Source: Bacteroidia bacterium
GTDB lineage: Bacteria; Bacteroidota; Bacteroidia; Flavobacteriales; Flavobacteriaceae
Direction of reading: 5' to 3'
Length of the DNA stretch: 64,000 nucleotides
Assembly: GCA_030427985.1 (NCBI GenBank)
Contig: JAUIBH010000012.1
Location: 1-64,000, forward strand
The translations under genes and the position numbers were made by a program. The notes below the pieces were generated by a model. That model saw nothing but the letters and a program-made list of their open reading frames with translations, was not told the origin of the DNA and did not search any database. This document shows positions 4,253-63,918 of the stretch, in pieces (within the stretch, counting starts at the first letter, position 1; each line of letters opens with the position of its first letter).

Positions 4253-4633
4253 ATGATTTTTGAGCACTTTGCAGTAAATGTAGCTGATGCACCTTCGGTT
4301 GTGGAATGGTATACAATAAACATGGGCCTGAAGGCGCGTGTGGCCGATAAGAACCCTCCTTTTATGACCTTTTTGGAAGACAGCACTGGGCGTGTGGTAG
4401 TCGAGTTCTACCAACGTGCCGATGCTCCTGTAACTGATTTTTCTGGAGAAAACTCATTGAGTTTCCATGTGGCCTTTGTGTCTGAAAATGCAGAAGAGGA
4501 CAAGAAACGTTTGGTGGAAAATGGTGCTACTTTTGAGCTCGAGGTAAACTTGGAGGACGGTAGTCATATTGTGATGCTCCGCGATCCGTGGGGTATGCCC
4601 TTGCAATTGTGCCAACGAGCCAAACCTTTTTAG
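4253..4633 (+). CDS. VOC/glyoxalase-like family protein
   Basis: Vicinal oxygen chelate pattern FEHFAVNVADAPSVVEWYTINMGLK...IVMLRDPWGMPLQLCQR. Confidence 0.85.
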   Translation: MIFEHFAVNVADAPSVVEWYTINMGLKARVADKNPPFMTFLEDSTGRVVVEFYQRADAPVTDFSGENSLSFHVAFVSENAEEDKKRLVENGATFELEVNLEDGSHIVMLRDPWGMPLQLCQRAKPF

Positions 4634-53385: not shown

Positions 53386-53619
53386 TTATAGGTCCTTATA
53401 GGGATATAGAATTACAATTTCTTTATTTTCAACCCTTCTAAACATTAAGGTTTCTTCTAAATATTTCTCAATTTCCTTAGTTCTTGGGGTATTTTTGGCA
53501 TCAACAAAGGAATAATCTGGAAATCTATCTTGATGAGCTCTTGCCCAATTCTTAGGAGTTGTTGCATTAATAACACCCGAGTTATTAAATAACAAAAAAT
53601 GTTTTTTATTTATACGCAT
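53386..53619 (-). CDS. hypothetical protein
   Basis: Open reading frame only. Confidence 0.4.
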   Translation of the reverse strand: MRINKKHFLLFNNSGVINATTPKNWARAHQDRFPDYSFVDAKNTPRTKEIEKYLEETLMFRRVENKEIVILYPYKDL

Positions 53620-53767
53620 TTTGTTTCTTTTTGAATACTATTTTTCAATAATGAATGTGTTCTTAAGGAGCATTTTTGAAACTCTATTCATATTTCGCCT
53701 AAGTAATCCTTTATATCATATTAATCTAGTAATTATCAATTTGGAGCTATCAATTAAAGCTTGCTAT

Positions 53768-54460
53768 TTATTGTTGAGTCTTGACTTCAAATTTATTTAA
53801 TCTCCTTACTGTCATAACAAAACTATTGGCAAACTGTATAGCTCGAAATTGGCACATAAGCATTAACCCACAGAAAATTGTGCCAAGAACCCATTTACTG
53901 CATATTAAACAGATTATTGTAGCGAAAAGTGTTGTTGTATATAATCCTTTAAATAAATCATTTAATGTATACCAATAATTCGCTGGTCCAAAGGTTCCTT
54001 GAACTTGTAGTAGCGCACATGATTCCCAAAAGGCCTCAGAACTATTCCAAGTTTTGTTTTTCTTGTTTTCCTCAATTACGGAATTAATAACCTTATTTTT
54101 ATACATGAAGAAATGAGTTATACACCTTAGAAACTCAACAAACTTGAACTTTCTCAAATCCCATTTATTCAATTTAAAGTGAATTGCTTTATATGTTTGT
54201 AATGACAGGAAACCTATACCATGGAGCAAGTGGCCTAGAATATATACTAACGGAATAGCCAGGATTATAATTATTCCAGAAAACTCTTTAATGAAACTAT
54301 GCTTTGTGAAGAAATCCTCAGTTAATTTCAGAACAGGCTCAAAGAATATCAAATTAAAGGATAATAAGAAAAAAGCTCCTGAGGAAAAATAAACTAAAAA
54401 ATCTCGAAGTGTAAAATTTGCTGTCATTTTAAGTAAGATTAATTGTAAACGGATTCGCAT
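53768..54460 (-). CDS. multi-TM hypothetical membrane protein
   Basis: Several hydrophobic segments. Confidence 0.55.
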   Translation of the reverse strand: MRIRLQLILLKMTANFTLRDFLVYFSSGAFFLLSFNLIFFEPVLKLTEDFFTKHSFIKEFSGIIIILAIPLVYILGHLLHGIGFLSLQTYKAIHFKLNKWDLRKFKFVEFLRCITHFFMYKNKVINSVIEENKKNKTWNSSEAFWESCALLQVQGTFGPANYWYTLNDLFKGLYTTTLFATIICLICSKWVLGTIFCGLMLMCQFRAIQFANSFVMTVRRLNKFEVKTQQ

Positions 54461-54545
54461 TCAAGACTGTCAATGAAGATAACAAAACCCCCAATTAACC
54501 TTAAATAAAGTTCAGTCCACTCTTAAAATGAAGGCTTTCAATATC

Positions 54546-55790
54546 CTAATCTCTTGCCTTGCCGTATAAAATAATATCAGATATAATATAGCGAAGCTTT
54601 TCTTTCAAATCATATTCCAGATTCAGTTCTTCAGCTTTATTGCACATTTCAAGGAGTTTTGTAAAGTTGCTAATTTCATTATCAATCCTACGGCTAAAAA
54701 TATCTGATAGTGTTTTGATGTCTTTAAAAGAACTTCGGCTGTTGTTCAACTTGAAAAGAATTTTCACCCTAAGTTCATCAGGATTTTTAATCGTTTTAAT
54801 ACTTTTAAGCTCTTGGACAAAATCCTTTGAAGTATTCAGAATGAATCCCATGTCATTGAGCATGGGGAAAACGTTTTCAGGTTTTTTACTATGTGGGATT
54901 ATTAAGGGCGCATTCTCGAAAATAGTATCACGCCTTGGCATGAGATAAACACCATTTAGGTTTTTTTGTAAAACCCTTAAAACATTCGTGAAATTCAAAG
55001 ATCCATTTCCAAGGTCATTAGTGGAGACTTTTATTGCAGTAGACACATGTCCAAAAGAGCCAGCATCATGGGTGTATTTTTCTGCAATAATCATATCCAA
55101 TTTGGATTCATTGAGCGCTGCACTTCTAATCTCATACTCAACTCCTTTATTTTGTTTCATGTTCTCATGCAATACTATCATTGCCACAACAAATGCAAAG
55201 TCGACTCCGTATTCATGATACCGTTGCGTTGATACTATGCCACGGACAAAGACATTTTCACCATCTGAAAGTAGTCTGTAATTCCTCTCTTTATTGTATT
55301 CATCAGAAGCGGAAGCCAAACTTTTGAAATATTGTACGTTGTAACGAGCTAATTCCGGCTGGCCAATTTTAAAAAGATTATTAGCATACTTGGTCATCAC
55401 ATACTCATCAAGAAAGGAGTTTTTGGCTCCATAAATTGAAATTGCATCGAGTTTGTTGCCGACTACTCCATCTTCAGCATATTCTTCAAAAAAGAAGACA
55501 ATCTCATCATCGCCATCTATGCTCTTTTCATAAACATCAATGTGTTTTGTTTGTGCAAGAATGTTAAACCTTTTATATTTAGTAAGTATTTTCTTGATTT
55601 TACTGTAAATAGTATCAACATAATCTATGGTAATGTAATCATCCATGATAGGTTCAATGCTCAGACTCTTTATTAGGTCCTTCTTGTATGGGTGTTCATC
55701 CAATAGTCCTAAAAGCTTTTCAACCTTGATTCTTCCTGAAGAGTTTTCCGGATCAAGGATAGTGTTTTCCTGGATAAAGTTTTTTTTCAT
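54546..55790 (-). CDS. hypothetical protein, 414 aa
   Basis: Long ORF with coding character; no family recognised with confidence. Confidence 0.65.
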   Translation of the reverse strand: MKKNFIQENTILDPENSSGRIKVEKLLGLLDEHPYKKDLIKSLSIEPIMDDYITIDYVDTIYSKIKKILTKYKRFNILAQTKHIDVYEKSIDGDDEIVFFFEEYAEDGVVGNKLDAISIYGAKNSFLDEYVMTKYANNLFKIGQPELARYNVQYFKSLASASDEYNKERNYRLLSDGENVFVRGIVSTQRYHEYGVDFAFVVAMIVLHENMKQNKGVEYEIRSAALNESKLDMIIAEKYTHDAGSFGHVSTAIKVSTNDLGNGSLNFTNVLRVLQKNLNGVYLMPRRDTIFENAPLIIPHSKKPENVFPMLNDMGFILNTSKDFVQELKSIKTIKNPDELRVKILFKLNNSRSSFKDIKTLSDIFSRRIDNEISNFTKLLEMCNKAEELNLEYDLKEKLRYIISDIILYGKARD

Positions 55791-55796
55791 AGCTAC

Positions 55797-55973
55797 TTAT
55801 TTTTCTTTTCGTACTCCTTTAAAGGGTTTATCGCTGGATGTTTTACCATCCATGAATCTCCCTGTTTCTGAATCTCGCTTCACCCAGATTCCTGTTTTTG
55901 AGTTTTGTACTTGGGAACGCTTTTTAACCGCCCCGTGCCTCCTGCCGTCTCCGGATTTTCCATTTGTTGCCAT
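55797..55973 (-). CDS. 58-aa small basic protein MATNGKSGDGRRHGAVKKRSQVQNSKTGIWVKRDSETGRFMDGKTSSDKPFKGVRKEK
   Basis: Matches, from memory, a widespread small uncharacterised family with GDGRRHGAVKKRSQV and KPFKGVRKEK; the track ORF (to 56213) over-extends upstream. Confidence 0.75.
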   Translation of the reverse strand: MATNGKSGDGRRHGAVKKRSQVQNSKTGIWVKRDSETGRFMDGKTSSDKPFKGVRKEK

Positions 55974-56085
55974 GGCTTCAATATTTAAATTAAACAATAG
56001 GTCATGTGGGTTTTGGGTCCACAGAATCATATGATTAAAGCGTGACAGAATTTTTTTATAACACTTTTGACATATACAAGTGGGT

Positions 56086-56724
56086 ATGGATATAGAATTT
56101 CTACTCTTACAAATAGACGATAAAGATGATAATCCTAAAGATGCGCAATTGGCATTAGGTGCCTTATACGAAGAATTCAGAAAGTTTGTATACAACATAA
56201 CTGTAAAAAACATTGATTATGTTCGTCAACGTGAAGAAATTGCAACCACGGTCGTCTGTGATGTTTTCAATTATGTTTGGAATAATCCAACCAAATGGTC
56301 TTATAACCAAAAGATGCATAAAACCCAAATAGACGGATTTAAGGTATATTTAGCTGTAGTTGCTCGATTAAAAAGACTTGAACAGTTAAGAGGTTTTGCA
56401 GAAGTCAGAAAAAATGAGAAACTGAAAGTTGATGATGTGAACAATGATTGGCTTTGGAAATTGGAAGAGGAGGAATATGAAGAATTGGAAACCCAAATGC
56501 TTATAAAAAACAATTTAGTGGACGAATGTCTTATGGAGTTTAAAGAACGAGACAGGGACATTATAAGAATGTTCTTTTCTTATTATGAAGAAGGAAAGAA
56601 TATGCCTGATTCCATAATCAAACTCATGGAATCACAGTTTGAGACCACTTGGCTCAATATTAGACAAATAATAAGTCGAGCTAAGAAAAAGATAAAAGGA
56701 CAGATAGAGTTAAAAATAAAGTGA
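56086..56724 (+). CDS. sigma-70-like protein (ECF-like)
   Basis: r2-like LGALYEEFRKFVYNIT...REEIATTVVCDVFNYVWNN; r4-like ERDRDIIRMFFSYYEEGKN...TTWLNIRQIISRAKKKIKGQI. Confidence 0.6.
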   Translation: MDIEFLLLQIDDKDDNPKDAQLALGALYEEFRKFVYNITVKNIDYVRQREEIATTVVCDVFNYVWNNPTKWSYNQKMHKTQIDGFKVYLAVVARLKRLEQLRGFAEVRKNEKLKVDDVNNDWLWKLEEEEYEELETQMLIKNNLVDECLMEFKERDRDIIRMFFSYYEEGKNMPDSIIKLMESQFETTWLNIRQIISRAKKKIKGQIELKIK

Positions 56725-56729
56725 GCATT

Positions 56730-57032
56730 ATGCCATCAAAAAAGAAGGATATAGGAAAATTGTTAAATAAGTACGGTTATTCTATCCCCCAGACTTCTGA
56801 TGAAATAAGGGCATTTGAAGAGAAGTTTGAGAAAGAATACGAGTCACCAGCAAAATGGCCAGATATAAAAGATATTATTGAGGGTAAATCTAATAAGGTA
56901 ATTAAACTTAAAAAAGATTCACCTAAAGATGCATCTGGTAATCTTGCGATGGCCGCAAGGGATGGTAAGAAAATTACAATGGAAGTCCGAGAAAGGATGA
57001 ATAAAGACCGTAATGCAGCAGAAAACGAATGA
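56730..57032 (+). CDS. small hypothetical protein in the sigma/ImmA tricistron
   Basis: Follows the sigma-like gene immediately and overlaps the ImmA start. Confidence 0.6.
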   Translation: MPSKKKDIGKLLNKYGYSIPQTSDEIRAFEEKFEKEYESPAKWPDIKDIIEGKSNKVIKLKKDSPKDASGNLAMAARDGKKITMEVRERMNKDRNAAENE

Positions 57033-57828
57033 GTTTTTGACAAGAGATGATGTTATAAATCTCAATGAGCTGGCAAGTAGTATATCTGATTATTATTTCC
57101 CAGAGAGCCAAATTGATCCTAGTTTAATCGCCACAAAAAACCAAATAACTTATAGTTATGGCAATTATGCTGACTCTTATCACGGCTTACTAGAACACCT
57201 CAATGGGAAGTTTCACATTTACATTAACCTTGACAAACTGGGCCACGCTTATTCCGAAAGATCAAGATTTACTTTTGGGCATGAGCTTGGACATTACTTT
57301 ATAGATAGTCATAGAGTAGCACTTGCATCGGGCCAGTCCCCAAGCCATGGTTCATTTACAGGTTTTGTGAGCAAGAATAGGGCAGAAAGGCAAGCCGACT
57401 ACTTTGCATCTTGTTTATTGATGCCAGAAAATCGATTTAGGGCCTATTGTTACAGAAAAAAATTTCAGTTCAGAATCATAGAGGAACTTGCAGGTAAATT
57501 TGGAACAAGTATATCCGCAGCAGCATTGAGGTTCTGTGCAATTGGAAACCATCCAATTTTAGTGGTTTGCGGTTTCAAAGGAAAAATCAAGTGGTACTGG
57601 AGTTCTGAAGATTTTAGGTACAAATGGTTGAAACATGGTAAAGATAGAATCCCAGATGATACTGTGGCGGGAGAATACTTTGAATTGGGTAAGTCACCGA
57701 AAACAACAGAGGAGGTTTTTGCTATGGATTGGTTTAATATAAAGTTTGAGGAACAGGCAATGGAGAAGTTTTACGAACATGCTAAATGCTATGGGGATTA
57801 TTCGATCAGTATTATTTGGGAAAATTGA
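57013..57828 (+). CDS. ImmA/IrrE family metallo-endopeptidase
   Basis: FGHELGHYFIDSHR zinc motif; NRAERQADYFASCLLMPENRFR. Confidence 0.92.
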   Translation: MQQKTNEFLTRDDVINLNELASSISDYYFPESQIDPSLIATKNQITYSYGNYADSYHGLLEHLNGKFHIYINLDKLGHAYSERSRFTFGHELGHYFIDSHRVALASGQSPSHGSFTGFVSKNRAERQADYFASCLLMPENRFRAYCYRKKFQFRIIEELAGKFGTSISAAALRFCAIGNHPILVVCGFKGKIKWYWSSEDFRYKWLKHGKDRIPDDTVAGEYFELGKSPKTTEEVFAMDWFNIKFEEQAMEKFYEHAKCYGDYSISIIWEN

Positions 57829-58098
57829 CTAAGGATTTTATTATCAATAATCTTTATCACCCGATTAGCCACCTATTCCCAAAATCAAAAATATCCTATT
57901 AAAAATCAATGAGATATAAAAAAGGTAATTGACCGAAGAGGTTAAATCTCATACTCCAAGGTTTTGGTTAACTATTGATAATCTCTACAACATTAGAAAC
58001 AATAAGTCGTTACAACTATTAACCTTGAACTTTGTAGCTGTTTTAATGTTAATTTTTAAGAGGTTTAATTAAAAATCTGAACTGCCAAAAGAATACCC

Positions 58099-59022
58099 AT
58101 GATTACTTTTTTGAATACGGAAAAGCTCATAAATGTCATTCCTGATACAATCTTTAATGCACAAAAGGAGCTGATAATTGTTGTACCTTTCATAAACCTT
58201 TCAAATGCAACCATGGATGCTCTAAGGGCTGCCGATAAAAAGGAGGTTGAAACGACAATAATATGTAGGTTTTCGGAAGTAAAGTCAAAAGACCAAAATT
58301 TCCTAGAGAACTTGGAAAACCTCAATGTTTTTTCCCATCCCAATGTACACTCCAAATGCTACTACAATGAGAACGTCATCGTAATAACATCACTGAATTT
58401 AACCTCGTACTCGGAAAGAAATAATCGTGAAATGGGTGTTAAGGTATCAAGGTATGATAACTGGGGGGAAGATTATGATGATTTGTTTGAAAACGAGGAG
58501 TTCATGGATTTTGCCGATGATTTGAGAATGGAATTACAACAACTCTTGAACGGGTCTGACTATATTATTAAGTCAAAAAAGGCAGGCCAGTTGGGGTACA
58601 CATGTTCTTTGTTAAACACCAACAGGGATAATATGGAACAGATCTGCAATGAACTCAATAGAAGGTTAAGTCCCAAAAGGTTTTCCATCGAGGAATTGGA
58701 GTATGCCAACTATATTGTTTGTGAAAACTATTTCGATAAGATAACCTTGAGAATAAAGGATTTTTATGAAAGGATTGAATTTGAACCAACTAGAGGGGAA
58801 ATTTCCTCTTGGTACAATAAATTCAAACCGTTACACCAGGAAGGGTTGAGGGTTCCCTTCAAAGGATCTGAATATGAATTCAAGATCTATCTCAATTCAG
58901 GGGCCAAATTGAACATTGTTGGGTATTATGATAATCTGGAGTTTTGGGACAGACTGGACCTATGGAATGCAGTGCTAATACAGATATCCACTTTTTTTAC
59001 CAAGGAGCTTCTTAAAATATGA
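58099..59022 (+). CDS. phospholipase D-like domain protein (single HKD-type motif)
   Basis: VHSKCYYNENVIVITSLNLTSYSERNNREMGVKV. Confidence 0.75.
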   Translation: MITFLNTEKLINVIPDTIFNAQKELIIVVPFINLSNATMDALRAADKKEVETTIICRFSEVKSKDQNFLENLENLNVFSHPNVHSKCYYNENVIVITSLNLTSYSERNNREMGVKVSRYDNWGEDYDDLFENEEFMDFADDLRMELQQLLNGSDYIIKSKKAGQLGYTCSLLNTNRDNMEQICNELNRRLSPKRFSIEELEYANYIVCENYFDKITLRIKDFYERIEFEPTRGEISSWYNKFKPLHQEGLRVPFKGSEYEFKIYLNSGAKLNIVGYYDNLEFWDRLDLWNAVLIQISTFFTKELLKI

Positions 59023-59026
59023 TGTT

Positions 59027-59500
59027 TCAATGATACTTTGACCAATTCGGCGTGTATGAGCCATACTGTCCATTTAAAGGAGGGAGTTCTGCAAATGCAT
59101 TGACATAGTTTTCCAAAGCCTCGGATTCCGCTTGTTTTGGGGAGTCCTTAGGAAGGATATGGATGAACAGATCATCAATAGGTACTTTGTTCCTAATGCG
59201 AAAATACTTGAGGCCCATCTGGGTATGACCAGAGGAAGCCGGTGTTTGCATTTCTAATTTCGAATTTGCCAATAGGGCATGCTGTAGATTCGAGACCCTA
59301 TCGAATAATGCTCCTTCCGTCATACCAATATATAGGATCCCATTTTTGTCCAAACCATTCAGACGTTGTATTGCCCTTGGTTTGCCATTGGTGTAATAGC
59401 ATAAAAAATAAATACCCGGCTTTTTAATTTCCACAATAGAATTCAAAGCCGATTTAAAAGCATTTATATCTTGATTTACTTTTAGGGGTGTTTGTATCAT
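59027..59500 (-). CDS. GIY-YIG-like nuclease
   Basis: PGIYFLCYY...NGILYIGMTEGALFDRVSNLQHALL...AESEALENYVNAFAELPPLNGQYG. Confidence 0.7.
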   Translation of the reverse strand: MIQTPLKVNQDINAFKSALNSIVEIKKPGIYFLCYYTNGKPRAIQRLNGLDKNGILYIGMTEGALFDRVSNLQHALLANSKLEMQTPASSGHTQMGLKYFRIRNKVPIDDLFIHILPKDSPKQAESEALENYVNAFAELPPLNGQYGSYTPNWSKYH

Positions 59501-59643
59501 TATTTGAACTTTCGAAATGGTCTCAACCAGGAACAGTCACAGATTTTCTAATTAATTTTTCCGTTTTGCTCTGACTTTCATTTTGTTTATTTTATCATTT
59601 CAACTGCAATTGTTTTTACAAAAAGTGTTGTTTTCTGGCCTTG

Positions 59644-62316
59644 TCATTGTAAATCAATTGAGCATGTGCATTTGGGATAATTTGTACAACCAAAAAAATT
59701 GCCAAACTTTCCGCTTCTTTTTGTCATGAACCCACTTTTGCAACTTGTACATAGAATAGTGTTATCTAAAATTTCAATATTGTTAAATGTTTGATTGCAA
59801 AGCGGATAATGGGAACAGCCTAAAAACTGATTGCCATTAATGGTGTTATTCCTGATTACAAGATGACCCGTTTGGCAATATGGACAATCTGTTTTGCTTA
59901 GTTTTTCATTGTTTGAATTAAATAAAAAGTCGTTGTCTTTTGTTAGTTCATCCACAAATAGTGATTCATCGGTCGGAATAAGGAGCACAACTTCATTTTT
60001 TGTTCTTGTTAATGCGACATAAAACAATCTACGTTCTTCTGCAAAACGATATGCTTCATTATCACTGAGTAATAAGGACAACATTGGATCGTCAGTTATT
60101 TTGTTTGGAAAACCGAGTAAATGGTTCTTTAGGTTCAGGACAATCACATTATCTGCTTCCAACCCTTTTGATTTGTGTACCGTTATATATTTAATGTCAA
60201 TTTGTTCAAGGCCTTTTATTTCTAATTTATCGGTGCGTTCATAATACTTTATTTTGCTGTTTGGAGTCAGCTTGATAAATTCATTTATGTCAAAACCATG
60301 ACGACCTAAAACTAAAATGGGTTTGTTACCGTTTTTGTCTATTAGCGCTTGAATTTCATTGATTAAAGTGGCTTGGGCATTGTCCTGAGAATAATAAACA
60401 AACTTTATAGGGTCATCTAAAGGGTCTTTTTTGGATTTAGGGTTTTTAGGTATTTGTTTAGTGTTTTTTTGGATGAACTTTGATGTTATATCAATGAGTG
60501 ATTGGGAATTCCGATAGGTTTGCTCAATAAATAACCTCTCATGTTTACCCACATATTTTTCGAAATTACTGAACAAAGAAATGTCGCTACCCGCAAAACG
60601 ATAAATCGATTGCCAATCATCGCCAACGCAAATTAGTCTCGCTCCTGATAATTTTCTGATTTCTTTAATTAGTTTGAAGCGGGCATATGAAATGTCCTGA
60701 TATTCATCAATGATGATATGCTGATATGTGTATTCAGGCTTATTTTCTTTAATGAGGTCAGTAGCATGATTTATCATATCACTGAAATCAATTTCAATAT
60801 TCTCTTTGAGTGTATAATCGTATTTTTCCAAAATTGGAAGAGCAAATTTCAAGAAGAGTTCCTGTCTTTTAGACATAAACTCATTTTTAGCTTTGCGTTT
60901 ATCTGAAAACAAGGATATTATTGAGTCGTAGTTTGATTGTCTTGATTTGCTAAGATTAATAAAGGTTGAAATCAAATTTGTTATTTCTTTTCCAAAGTTT
61001 TTGTCCTTGTCCGTAACTTTTGAGAATATGCTTTTTCCGTCTCTTGGCTTAAAAACTACATTTTCGTAATCCAATAACTCCTTAAGTTTTTCAAGCAAAA
61101 CATTGTTGCGGTTGTAATAGGAATAGGTTTCTAGAAGTTTGGTGTCATAAGTTTCATGTAATTCTCTCTTTAACTCCATATCCTCTACATATTCCTGTTC
61201 CTTAAATGGTGTAAGCCATTTTGCGCGGTTATTTTCATCAACTCCGAAATGTTCCAAATAAATGTCATAATCTTTTAGATAGAAATCGGGACGGTACATG
61301 GCATCGCCAAAAGGATATGGTTTTTCATATTCGTAGTCAATGCTGTTCAAATACAAAAAGTTTGCGATTGTCAGTTCTTCAACACTTTTGACCCTTTCTC
61401 CCTGAAAGGTGTTGAGAGATGTTATTGCGACTTTGTTCAATGATTCAGGTTCACACTTAGATTTTAAAGTTTGGAAATCAATACCCTTTTCCGTGTCTAT
61501 TTTTTCTCCAAGGGAATCAAAACTTTCATGTCCTTCTGGAATATTCATGTAGCAAGCAACATATTCGATATATGCACTTAATGCGTTTTCATCGCTAAAG
61601 ATTTCGTTTTCCAAATACGCTTTAACAACCTGATTTAATGTGTTTTCATTAGTTACGGCGGGAACACTTGTTTCATACTTTTTAATGGTGTCGTACCCGA
61701 GTTTATGGAAAGTGGTCGCTCTTACATCGAGTTCTAAGGTTTTAATTCGTTCATTTAATTCATCAACGGTTTTTTTGGTAAATGATAAAAGTAAAATGTT
61801 TTCAGGTTTGACATTTTTCTGTTCTATCAGATACTTAACTTTACCTAAGATAGTCAAGGTTTTGCCTGAACCTGCACCTGCGATTATCAGGTTTGAATAT
61901 TCGTCCGTTATCAATGCGGTACGTTGTTGGTCGTCTAATTTTTTACCTTCAATATCATCAAAATATTGGTTAAGTTTTTCTTTTTGTGCTTGAACATAGT
62001 TTTTATTGTAGCTAACTATGTAATTATCGAAATTTTGATAAACATCATTGAATTTTTTGACACGAGTTTCCTTTTTGTAAAAGTTGGATTTGCCTTTAAA
62101 ATATTTGCCGGTATCAGAAAAATTTGTTTTTATTTTATCACGTTGTACCCAAGTTATATAATCGTCAAAGTTCTGTATAACGTCAAAAAAGGAGGTGGCT
62201 TCCTGTAATCTGGATAGGTAGGTGGTATTCTGATATTTTTTCTTTTCCGTTGTTCGTAAGTAAACGATAATAGAACTAGTTACTACAACAGATGGGATAA
62301 TCAGATTCCATAGCAT
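59644..62316 (-). CDS. UvrD/HelD-like superfamily 1 helicase with nuclease-like insert and C-terminal topoisomerase-type zinc ribbons
   Basis: Walker A IAGAGSGKTLTILGKV; DEYQDIS; YRPDFYLKDYDIYLEHFG; ITVHKSKGLEADNVIVLNL; RRLFYVALTRTKNEV; two CxxC...C ribbons at the C-terminus. Confidence 0.92.
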   Translation of the reverse strand: MLWNLIIPSVVVTSSIIVYLRTTEKKKYQNTTYLSRLQEATSFFDVIQNFDDYITWVQRDKIKTNFSDTGKYFKGKSNFYKKETRVKKFNDVYQNFDNYIVSYNKNYVQAQKEKLNQYFDDIEGKKLDDQQRTALITDEYSNLIIAGAGSGKTLTILGKVKYLIEQKNVKPENILLLSFTKKTVDELNERIKTLELDVRATTFHKLGYDTIKKYETSVPAVTNENTLNQVVKAYLENEIFSDENALSAYIEYVACYMNIPEGHESFDSLGEKIDTEKGIDFQTLKSKCEPESLNKVAITSLNTFQGERVKSVEELTIANFLYLNSIDYEYEKPYPFGDAMYRPDFYLKDYDIYLEHFGVDENNRAKWLTPFKEQEYVEDMELKRELHETYDTKLLETYSYYNRNNVLLEKLKELLDYENVVFKPRDGKSIFSKVTDKDKNFGKEITNLISTFINLSKSRQSNYDSIISLFSDKRKAKNEFMSKRQELFLKFALPILEKYDYTLKENIEIDFSDMINHATDLIKENKPEYTYQHIIIDEYQDISYARFKLIKEIRKLSGARLICVGDDWQSIYRFAGSDISLFSNFEKYVGKHERLFIEQTYRNSQSLIDITSKFIQKNTKQIPKNPKSKKDPLDDPIKFVYYSQDNAQATLINEIQALIDKNGNKPILVLGRHGFDINEFIKLTPNSKIKYYERTDKLEIKGLEQIDIKYITVHKSKGLEADNVIVLNLKNHLLGFPNKITDDPMLSLLLSDNEAYRFAEERRLFYVALTRTKNEVVLLIPTDESLFVDELTKDNDFLFNSNNEKLSKTDCPYCQTGHLVIRNNTINGNQFLGCSHYPLCNQTFNNIEILDNTILCTSCKSGFMTKRSGKFGNFFGCTNYPKCTCSIDLQ

Positions 62317-62608
62317 AATTACAGCATATATTTTTTAATGGAAGCATTCATTTTGCCTTACATGTAACTAGGGTAATTTGATGTAATATACAGTGCTATC
62401 ATTTCAAAACAGAATAAAATCGATGTATTTTGAATTTCTTCTATTGGAATCGATTATTTGAACTTTTATGTTTTATGGCCAATAGAGAATATTGTTATAA
62501 CAGTTGTTAAGACTTGAATTGGACCAATTATATGACTTGTCAACTTCTTGCAATGCTTGTTTTATAATAGTGAAAATCTTCAACGAAGATTTACTATAAG
62601 TCTTCCTT

Positions 62609-62633
62609 CACAAAGCTTTCTTTGAGCTTTGTG
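62609..62633. repeat. Inverted repeat cacaaagct-ttctttg-agctttgtg
   Basis: Perfect 9-bp arms. Confidence 0.85.
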
Positions 62634-62699
62634 GGAATTCTTATAAAAATGGTTTCTTGGTCAAATTTTAAGGGGTTCTTAATAAAAGAAGCCCTTTAT

Positions 62700-62723
62700 T
62701 GTTTTTCGGGTCATCGAAAAACA
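62700..62723. repeat. Inverted repeat tgtttttcg-ggtcat-cgaaaaaca
   Basis: Perfect 9-bp arms. Confidence 0.85.
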
Positions 62724-62753
62724 GGGCAGTGCCCAGGGACTTCCTATCAGGAC

Positions 62754-62811
62754 ACCATCACCCGTAGTCGCTTAACTTTCCGTACGCTCCTTTGCCAATG
62801 GGTCTGATGGT
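62754..62811. repeat. Imperfect long-range inverted repeat accatcaccc ... gggtctgatggt
   Basis: Arms pair except for a 2-nt bulge. Confidence 0.5.
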
Positions 62812-62831
62812 ATTCCCAAGAGCTCTAATAG

Positions 62832-62855
62832 AACCTGTCAAGGCCAAGACAGGTT
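62832..62855. repeat. Inverted repeat aacctgtc-aaggccaa-gacaggtt
   Basis: Perfect 8-bp arms. Confidence 0.85.
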
Positions 62856-62873
62856 TTGTTCGCAAATAGGGTA

Positions 62874-62913
62874 TCCACTTCCTTGAAAACCTATAGGTTT
62901 TCAAGGAAGTGGA
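62874..62913. repeat. 40-bp perfect palindrome tccacttccttgaaaacctataggttttcaaggaagtgga
   Basis: Sequence equals its own reverse complement. Confidence 0.95.
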
Positions 62914-63062
62914 GCCTCCCGATTTCCTTTCCAAAAGCCTTGACAGAACCCCCTTCTTTTATTGTGCGATGCACGTAAGAAGCAAACAAACACCCCCTTA
63001 AAATTTGGGAACAATTGAACAAAGGATTAAGGGATTTAATAATCATTTAAATGCTTTTTATT

Positions 63063-63468: not shown

Positions 63469-63918
63469 ATGCAACATCAAGTCAATGAAATACAGATCAG
63501 CTACAGGGAAAAACTTAGTACCCTGCAATCGAACTCCATCACCAATTCAAATGACGTGGCGCAATTGCTCTTCAAAAATTGGGATACTGACACCATTGGA
63601 TTGAACGAATGCTTCAAGATTCTTTTGCTCAACCAAACGAATAAAGTCAAAGGGATATATCCCTTATCCATTGGTGGAATAACGGGTACCTTGGTGGATA
63701 TGCGCATTCTTTTTGCCATAGTTTTAAAAACTTTGTCCGTGGGCATCATATTGTCCCACAATCATCCATCTGGACAGCTGAAGGCAAGTGAAGCTGACAA
63801 ACAGTTGACCAAAAAGATACAACAGGCAGCCCAACTTTTTGATGTCATGGTGTTGGACCATATCATCCTGGCACCCAATGGAAGTTATTACAGTTTTGCC
63901 GATCATGGTTTGATGTGA
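63469..63918 (+). CDS. RadC/JAB-domain protein
   Basis: GTLVDMRILFAIVLKTLSVGIILSHNHPSGQLKASEADKQLTKKIQQAAQLFDVMVLDHIILAP. Confidence 0.92.
   Translation: MQHQVNEIQISYREKLSTLQSNSITNSNDVAQLLFKNWDTDTIGLNECFKILLLNQTNKVKGIYPLSIGGITGTLVDMRILFAIVLKTLSVGIILSHNHPSGQLKASEADKQLTKKIQQAAQLFDVMVLDHIILAPNGSYYSFADHGLM

Follow-up and report, generated by a model that had tools for sequence, protein, structure and literature searches.

What is the cluster of hairpins that lies directly upstream of ssb in this Flavobacteriaceae contig? We addressed this question in a window of 64,000 nucleotides (the whole stretch of DNA analyzed here), which comes from a draft genome of 188 contigs that is 88.9% complete. An earlier note on this DNA had described a hairpin-dense region at 62600-62950, holding a perfect 40-bp palindrome, and had suggested an origin of replication or transfer, a recombination site, or a structured non-coding RNA. 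All of the inverted repeats that it listed are real and are present at the positions given. The palindrome apart, nearly all of these hairpins are parts of one conserved minus-strand structure. The unit is wider than the region named: its domain of about 345 nt is closed by a terminal inverted repeat (62663-62675 / 62994-63006).

A conserved element in the Flavobacteriaceae

The cluster proved to be one copy of an element of about 340 bases together with a flanking hairpin. The hairpin at 62609-62633 belongs to a separate conserved domain, D1, which also covaries. The main features of the locus are as follows.

62662-63007, minus strand: core structured element (domain D2)
62595-62645, minus strand: flanking hairpin D1, cacaaagct / agctttgtg plus an outer helix
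63063-63404, plus strand: ssb (Pfam SSB, 5e-32, and an NCBIfam ssb match), the gene read from the proposed promoter
63469-63918, plus strand: gene for a radC-like JAB protein (protein-family matches)
contig positions about 64155-64220 and 64338-64925, past the end of the window: oriT-like block and btgA

Beside the element, at 53386-62316 of the window, genes that by eye resemble defence cargo were noted (an ImmA/IrrE-type peptidase, a PLD-type nuclease, and a GIY-YIG protein). The same cargo includes a UvrD-type helicase with a zinc ribbon, the sole cargo gene compared with Pfam.

A DNA search recovered homologs of the element in 59 of 399 Flavobacteriaceae genomes (about 15%), with matches that span almost exactly 62662-63007 of the window, and a profile search of loci fetched from the genomes gave 68 distinct copies. 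When the search was widened to the order (392 genomes) and the phylum (396), clear copies were still confined to this family. A second covariance model, for the tip of helix P3 (helices are listed below), matched in 60 of the 399 family genomes. The ends of the element are constant, ATTTTAAGGGG and CCCCTTAAAAT, and pair with each other in the alignment as helix P1.

A weak covariance-model match in another family (G472, E 0.002) was judged to be due to chance; no ssb or mobilization gene lies near it. No such gene was recognized near a strong P3-tip match either (L169, G146:C1:3834226-3834292, E 7.5e-12), which may be a relic or serve a different use. Elsewhere in the source genome, 39 bp (L003, G000:C170:16811-16849) match the left end of the element at 87%, the rest being absent. 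A blastn search of plasmids with the window region returned nothing convincing except the ssb coding sequence, and a typical element gave no match among 72,556 plasmids. Searches of Rfam, at the gathering score and at a relaxed E-value, gave only chance matches to hairpins, below the gathering scores.

Fold, strand, and composite boxes

The hairpin region of the window was predicted to fold much more stably than its dinucleotide shuffles, with z-scores of -7.6 (plus strand) and -8.6 (minus strand) for RNA folding and of -8.9 and -9.1, respectively, for DNA folding. An alignment of 49 minus-strand sequences yielded 89 predicted pairs, of which 50 vary on both sides, and 95.6% of the cells were paired; sliding the partner by one column lowered this value to about 50%. 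Every measure of covariation beat 500 of 500 shuffles (0/500 reached the observed value). The earlier note, which had named missing compensatory variation as a point against its reading, was right that the element is structured and functional; such variation is strongly present. The parts of the fold and the boxes discussed below are the following.

62994-63006, minus strand: helix P1, 5' strand on the folded strand
62663-62675, minus strand: helix P1, 3' strand on the folded strand, paired with 62994-63006
62953-62963, minus strand: helix P2, 5' strand, template side, continuous with P3
62681-62691, minus strand: helix P2, 3' strand, paired with 62953-62963; second half of the proposed composite promoter spacer
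62937-62946, minus strand: P3 base helix, 5' strand, template side (gccttgacag)
62835-62844, minus strand: P3 base helix, 3' strand (ctgtcaaggc)
62754-62811, minus strand: P4 arm, accatcaccc / gggtctgatggt (helices 9-11), with the strongest covariation of all arms
62700-62723, minus strand: P5 hairpin, tgtttttcg / cgaaaaaca (helix 13)
62836-62841, minus strand: -35-like box within the 3' arm of the base helix of P3; the window has an exact TTGACA
62676-62681, minus strand: -10-like box, unpaired between P2 and P1, degenerate in the window
62874-62913, no strand assigned: 40-bp perfect palindrome at the P3 tip

In helix P2, 7 of the 11 pairs carry double changes. The base helix of P3 is formed by the two sequences that had been seen to bracket the palindrome, and these are a perfect inverted repeat. 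At 62832-62855, a local hairpin (aacctgtc/gacaggtt) competes with this long-range helix, and a similar local hairpin occurs in many homologs.

The folded strand was determined by folding the alignment with G.U pairs forbidden and counting the mismatches afterwards. Read on the minus strand, 209 cells were G.U and 54 were A.C, counts that refer to cells and not to independent events; the numbers reverse on the plus strand. Domain D1 also favors the minus strand (G.U 146 vs A.C 41). As a control, 16 homologs of Frpo, the single-stranded promoter of the F plasmid that is discussed below, gave 21 G.U and 9 A.C on Frpo's transferred strand. Judged by these alignments, it is the minus strand, the template strand of ssb and complementary to its mRNA, that carries the conserved fold. 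DNA energy parameters recover helices P1-P5 in relatives. Some of the G.U pairs are nearly invariant, and the loops are conserved on the minus strand. G-T wobble is more typical of RNA than of DNA, which counts against reading the element as a single-stranded-DNA promoter.

Between the element and ssb, the spacer (63007-63062) and its homologs contain a conserved AGGGGAAATATTAATC. The AGGGG in it might pair with CCCCT in competition with P1, which would make a switch possible.

Two boxes recur at constant places in this fold. TTGACA is exact in 55 of the 68 copies, in the 3' arm of the P3 base, and TATAAA is exact in 54, unpaired and just beyond the 3' arm of P2. In the linear sequence they are 152 nt apart. 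Along stacked P3 and P2, which share a continuous 5' strand, the distance becomes 8 + 9 = 17 nt, and it does so in 67 of the 68 copies. No column permutation out of 5000 reproduced this geometry, a result that is partly post hoc, as the boxes were sought with the fold already in hand. The template is the continuous strand, and following it leads by way of P1 into ssb. In the window copy, the -35 box and the helices are retained, but TAAGAA stands in place of TATAAA; with such a degenerate -10 box, this copy may be a weak promoter.

TTGACA and TATAAA are boxes of the E. coli type, while the housekeeping sigma factor of Bacteroidota prefers TTTG/TAnnTTTG. With this consensus, a TAnnTTTG -7 box was found in 0 of 57 homologs on the plus strand of the element or of the spacer to ssb, and in 0 of 57 in the minus direction across the spacer and the start of ssb. 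A linear promoter in double-stranded DNA was rejected, there being no TAnnTTTG in the element or spacer. An alternative -7-like box, TATTTTTC in the 3' arm of P3, is conserved, but it lacks the final G and a conserved -33 partner and is kept as a lead only.

The palindrome, to which the earlier note had drawn attention, is indeed perfect (20 + 20, with no spacer) but turned out to be a private mutation of the window copy and not a conserved core. In homologs, the P3 tip consists of an internal loop, CAAGGAA / GACGTAG, capped by a short hairpin. In the window copy, the GACGTAG side has been swapped for the exact complement of the CAAGGAA side, and the conserved internal loop is erased. This conversion probably arose by template switching between the arms and bears the signature of quasipalindrome correction, for which template switching is given as a general mechanism in PMC7202029 and PMC8794818. 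As the genome is a draft, a perfect palindrome produced by assembly or amplification is possible. Inspection of the sequence bears out that the region is not a simple terminator: no T-run follows the hairpin, as an intrinsic terminator would have it, and D1 has none.

Gene neighborhood and plasmid relatives

The next gene on the same strand is ssb in 59 of the 68 copies, mostly within 45-90 bp. Wherever btgA is within reach (30 of 30), it too is found downstream and in this orientation. The gene order, which is conserved, reads ParB-like, DUF932, variable cargo, element, ssb, DUF6876 or RadC, a gap, BtgA/BfmA, MobB relaxase, and TraG-like coupling protein; the identities of the relaxase and the coupling protein were confirmed by protein-family matches. 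In 25 loci, the gap between DUF6876/radC and btgA holds one block that hardly varies, GACGAAAAGGAATAGCAAGAGGGTAACA, flanked by inverted repeats; it is a good candidate, and the best one here, for the oriT of this MobB family. A diverged block of this type lies on the contig of the window, past its end (L034 about 2155-2220). The block was absent from the searched stretch of plasmid pSMS7. Just before btgA, repeated TTTGCGACAAA-like motifs were seen, possibly BtgA binding sites.

From the gene order and the oriT-like block, we infer that the ssb side is the leading region: as in F, the genes are transcribed toward the oriT-like block, on the side opposite the relaxase. The constant orientation of the element fits this assignment, and the F leading region encodes the same SSB, ParB-like, and DUF932 families in the same orientation as at the element loci. 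If the ssb side leads, the minus strand would be the transferred strand and the first to enter.

Related copies were found with the covariance model and blastn on plasmid NZ_CP053591 of Aquimarina sp. TRL1, always on the minus strand. There, at least seven copies, each ahead of a different gene, have their CTTCCTT core at a distance of 108-110 or 137-140 nt from the start codon, in one orientation. These genes include a DEAD-box helicase and a RadC/JAB gene, a further partial copy stands ahead of another gene, and most copies are on the side of the relaxase gene that is expected to lead. The intergenic region directly upstream of ssb on this plasmid is unstructured (z about -1), the copies preceding other genes. 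Short P3-tip relatives on TRL1 (L136:11790-13745 and L137) form an array that is useful for defining a minimal element.

A diverged version of about 490 bp, almost identical before ssb and parB, is carried by pSMS7 (Arenibacter) and a related Flagellimonas plasmid. A second, different repeat of about 93 nt on pSMS7 (L132:3383-3475 and 4282-4374) precedes JAB and N6-methylase genes and is possibly another class of leading-region promoter. In one genome (G095), two full copies of the element lie 1.3 kb apart, ahead of two genes. Repeated copies before several leading-region operons are therefore found in TRL1, pSMS7, and G095. The relatives on the Aquimarina plasmid and pSMS7 share the P3 tip or middle, but a search for the composite boxes there found none, and the rule of promoter recognition may differ among these versions.

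Because the related plasmid copies precede different genes at fixed spacing and in one orientation, the element is, on sequence comparison, one that acts in cis. A trans-acting RNA is disfavored, since one of that kind would have no need of a separate copy for each gene.

A candidate single-stranded-DNA promoter and its alternatives

Taken together, these observations indicate that the element is probably a promoter that works from single-stranded DNA in the leading region of a mobilizable or conjugative element. During conjugation, the minus strand would enter the recipient with its 5' end first and then fold. The fold would stack P3 on P2, with the template continuous and with TTGACA and TATAAA 17 nt apart and pointing at ssb. 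RNA polymerase would bind the folded strand and transcribe ssb, together with radC or DUF6876, ahead of complementary-strand synthesis, for which the transcript may also serve as primer. A DNA-protecting gene would thereby be switched on immediately in the new cell. In the donor or in integrated form, where the DNA is double-stranded, the composite promoter would be absent.

For F-type plasmids, single-stranded promoters have been demonstrated; elsewhere, their presence has been deduced mainly from resemblance to the F-type ones. Frpo1 and Frpo2 of the F plasmid fold on the transferred strand, rebuild a -35 and a -10 box, and precede leading genes, ssb among them; early expression in the recipient depends on them (PMC9849209). 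A survey reported thousands of Frpo-like sequences, recognized because they resemble known Frpo or boxes of the enterobacterial type, and its main text does not mention Bacteroidota (PMC11541004). A search of one literature collection for single-stranded promoters together with Bacteroidota found no paper.

The element resembles Frpo1/Frpo2 (ssi) in being non-coding and several hundred nt long, in lying upstream of ssb and other putative leading genes, in occurring in repeated copies, and in folding on the transferred strand, insofar as that strand is correctly inferred here. Covariation, strand bias, and geometry point to a stable fold on the template strand with -35 and -10 boxes rebuilt at promoter spacing, as in Frpo/ssi. 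It differs in showing no blastn similarity to Frpo, although thousands of the 72,556 plasmids carry one, and in its Bacteroidota host and its MobB/BtgA mobilization system. In addition, Frpo is one long hairpin, whereas the element is multi-branched, its composite -35/-10 spanning a helix junction. The best reading by analogy would be a Bacteroidota counterpart of Frpo/ssi that stands outside the Frpo sequence family. On balance, we also think it likely that this is an undescribed family of Bacteroidota single-stranded-DNA promoters with an architecture unlike that of Frpo, in which a multi-helix junction in the transferred strand joins the -35 and -10 boxes, the template stays continuous, and early genes are expressed only from incoming single-stranded DNA.

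Of the alternatives, a large structured non-coding RNA has the most in its favor. Such an RNA would be made from the minus strand, divergently from ssb, and would act in trans or as an antisense regulator. Strong covariation, G.U pairs, and conserved minus-strand loops are typical of RNA, and a long, conserved, multi-branched fold with strong covariation is shared with GOLLD and ROOL, large RNAs of mobile elements. This suggestion, which the earlier note had also made, nevertheless fits poorly. Copies stand at fixed distances before different genes, in one orientation and several per plasmid; the downstream hairpin D1 is conserved but has no T-run; and, unlike GOLLD and ROOL, the element has no Rfam family match, folds on the template strand of the downstream gene, and shows no Bacteroidota promoter for such a transcript (0 of 57 across the spacer and the start of ssb). 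We consider this explanation unlikely.

It is improbable, too, that the element is a single-strand initiation site (sso/ssi) serving only to prime the complementary strand, with gene expression incidental. Priming would call for the same strand, the same leading-region position, and a fold, and Frpo is described as both promoter and primer source in a passage of PMC11541004 that cites Masai and Arai 1997. An sso such as that of ICEBs1 is likewise a fold of the transferred strand, which is expected to attract host enzymes once inside the cell (PMC4595007). However, sso sites are known for priming, while relatives of the element precede many start codons at fixed spacing, which favors gene expression over one priming site.

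A double-stranded regulatory region, or a leader of the ssb mRNA (an operator, riboswitch, or attenuator), would account for the near-constant distance directly upstream of ssb, but is very improbable: the fold sits on the strand that is not the mRNA, a protein-binding duplex would give no strand bias, and the element and spacer have no -7 box. Least probable is an oriT, a recombination or attachment site, or a MITE-like transposon bounded by the ATTTTAAGGGG inverted repeats; the terminal inverted repeats and the mobile-element position would suit these, and the earlier note was right to place the region in such an element, but the relaxase-adjacent nick region is better sought in the separate conserved block adjoining btgA, the copies are tied to the same gene context and not scattered, and the integrase genes lie elsewhere and are variable.

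The single-stranded-DNA promoter model raises the puzzle of which Bacteroidota sigma factor reads TTGACA/TATAAA. As a structural model, it makes each helix and box testable by compensatory mutation, and as a search model, it could mark leading regions and anti-defence genes in Bacteroidota elements. If it is true, the expression of protective genes from incoming single-stranded DNA would have arisen, or spread, far outside the Proteobacteria.
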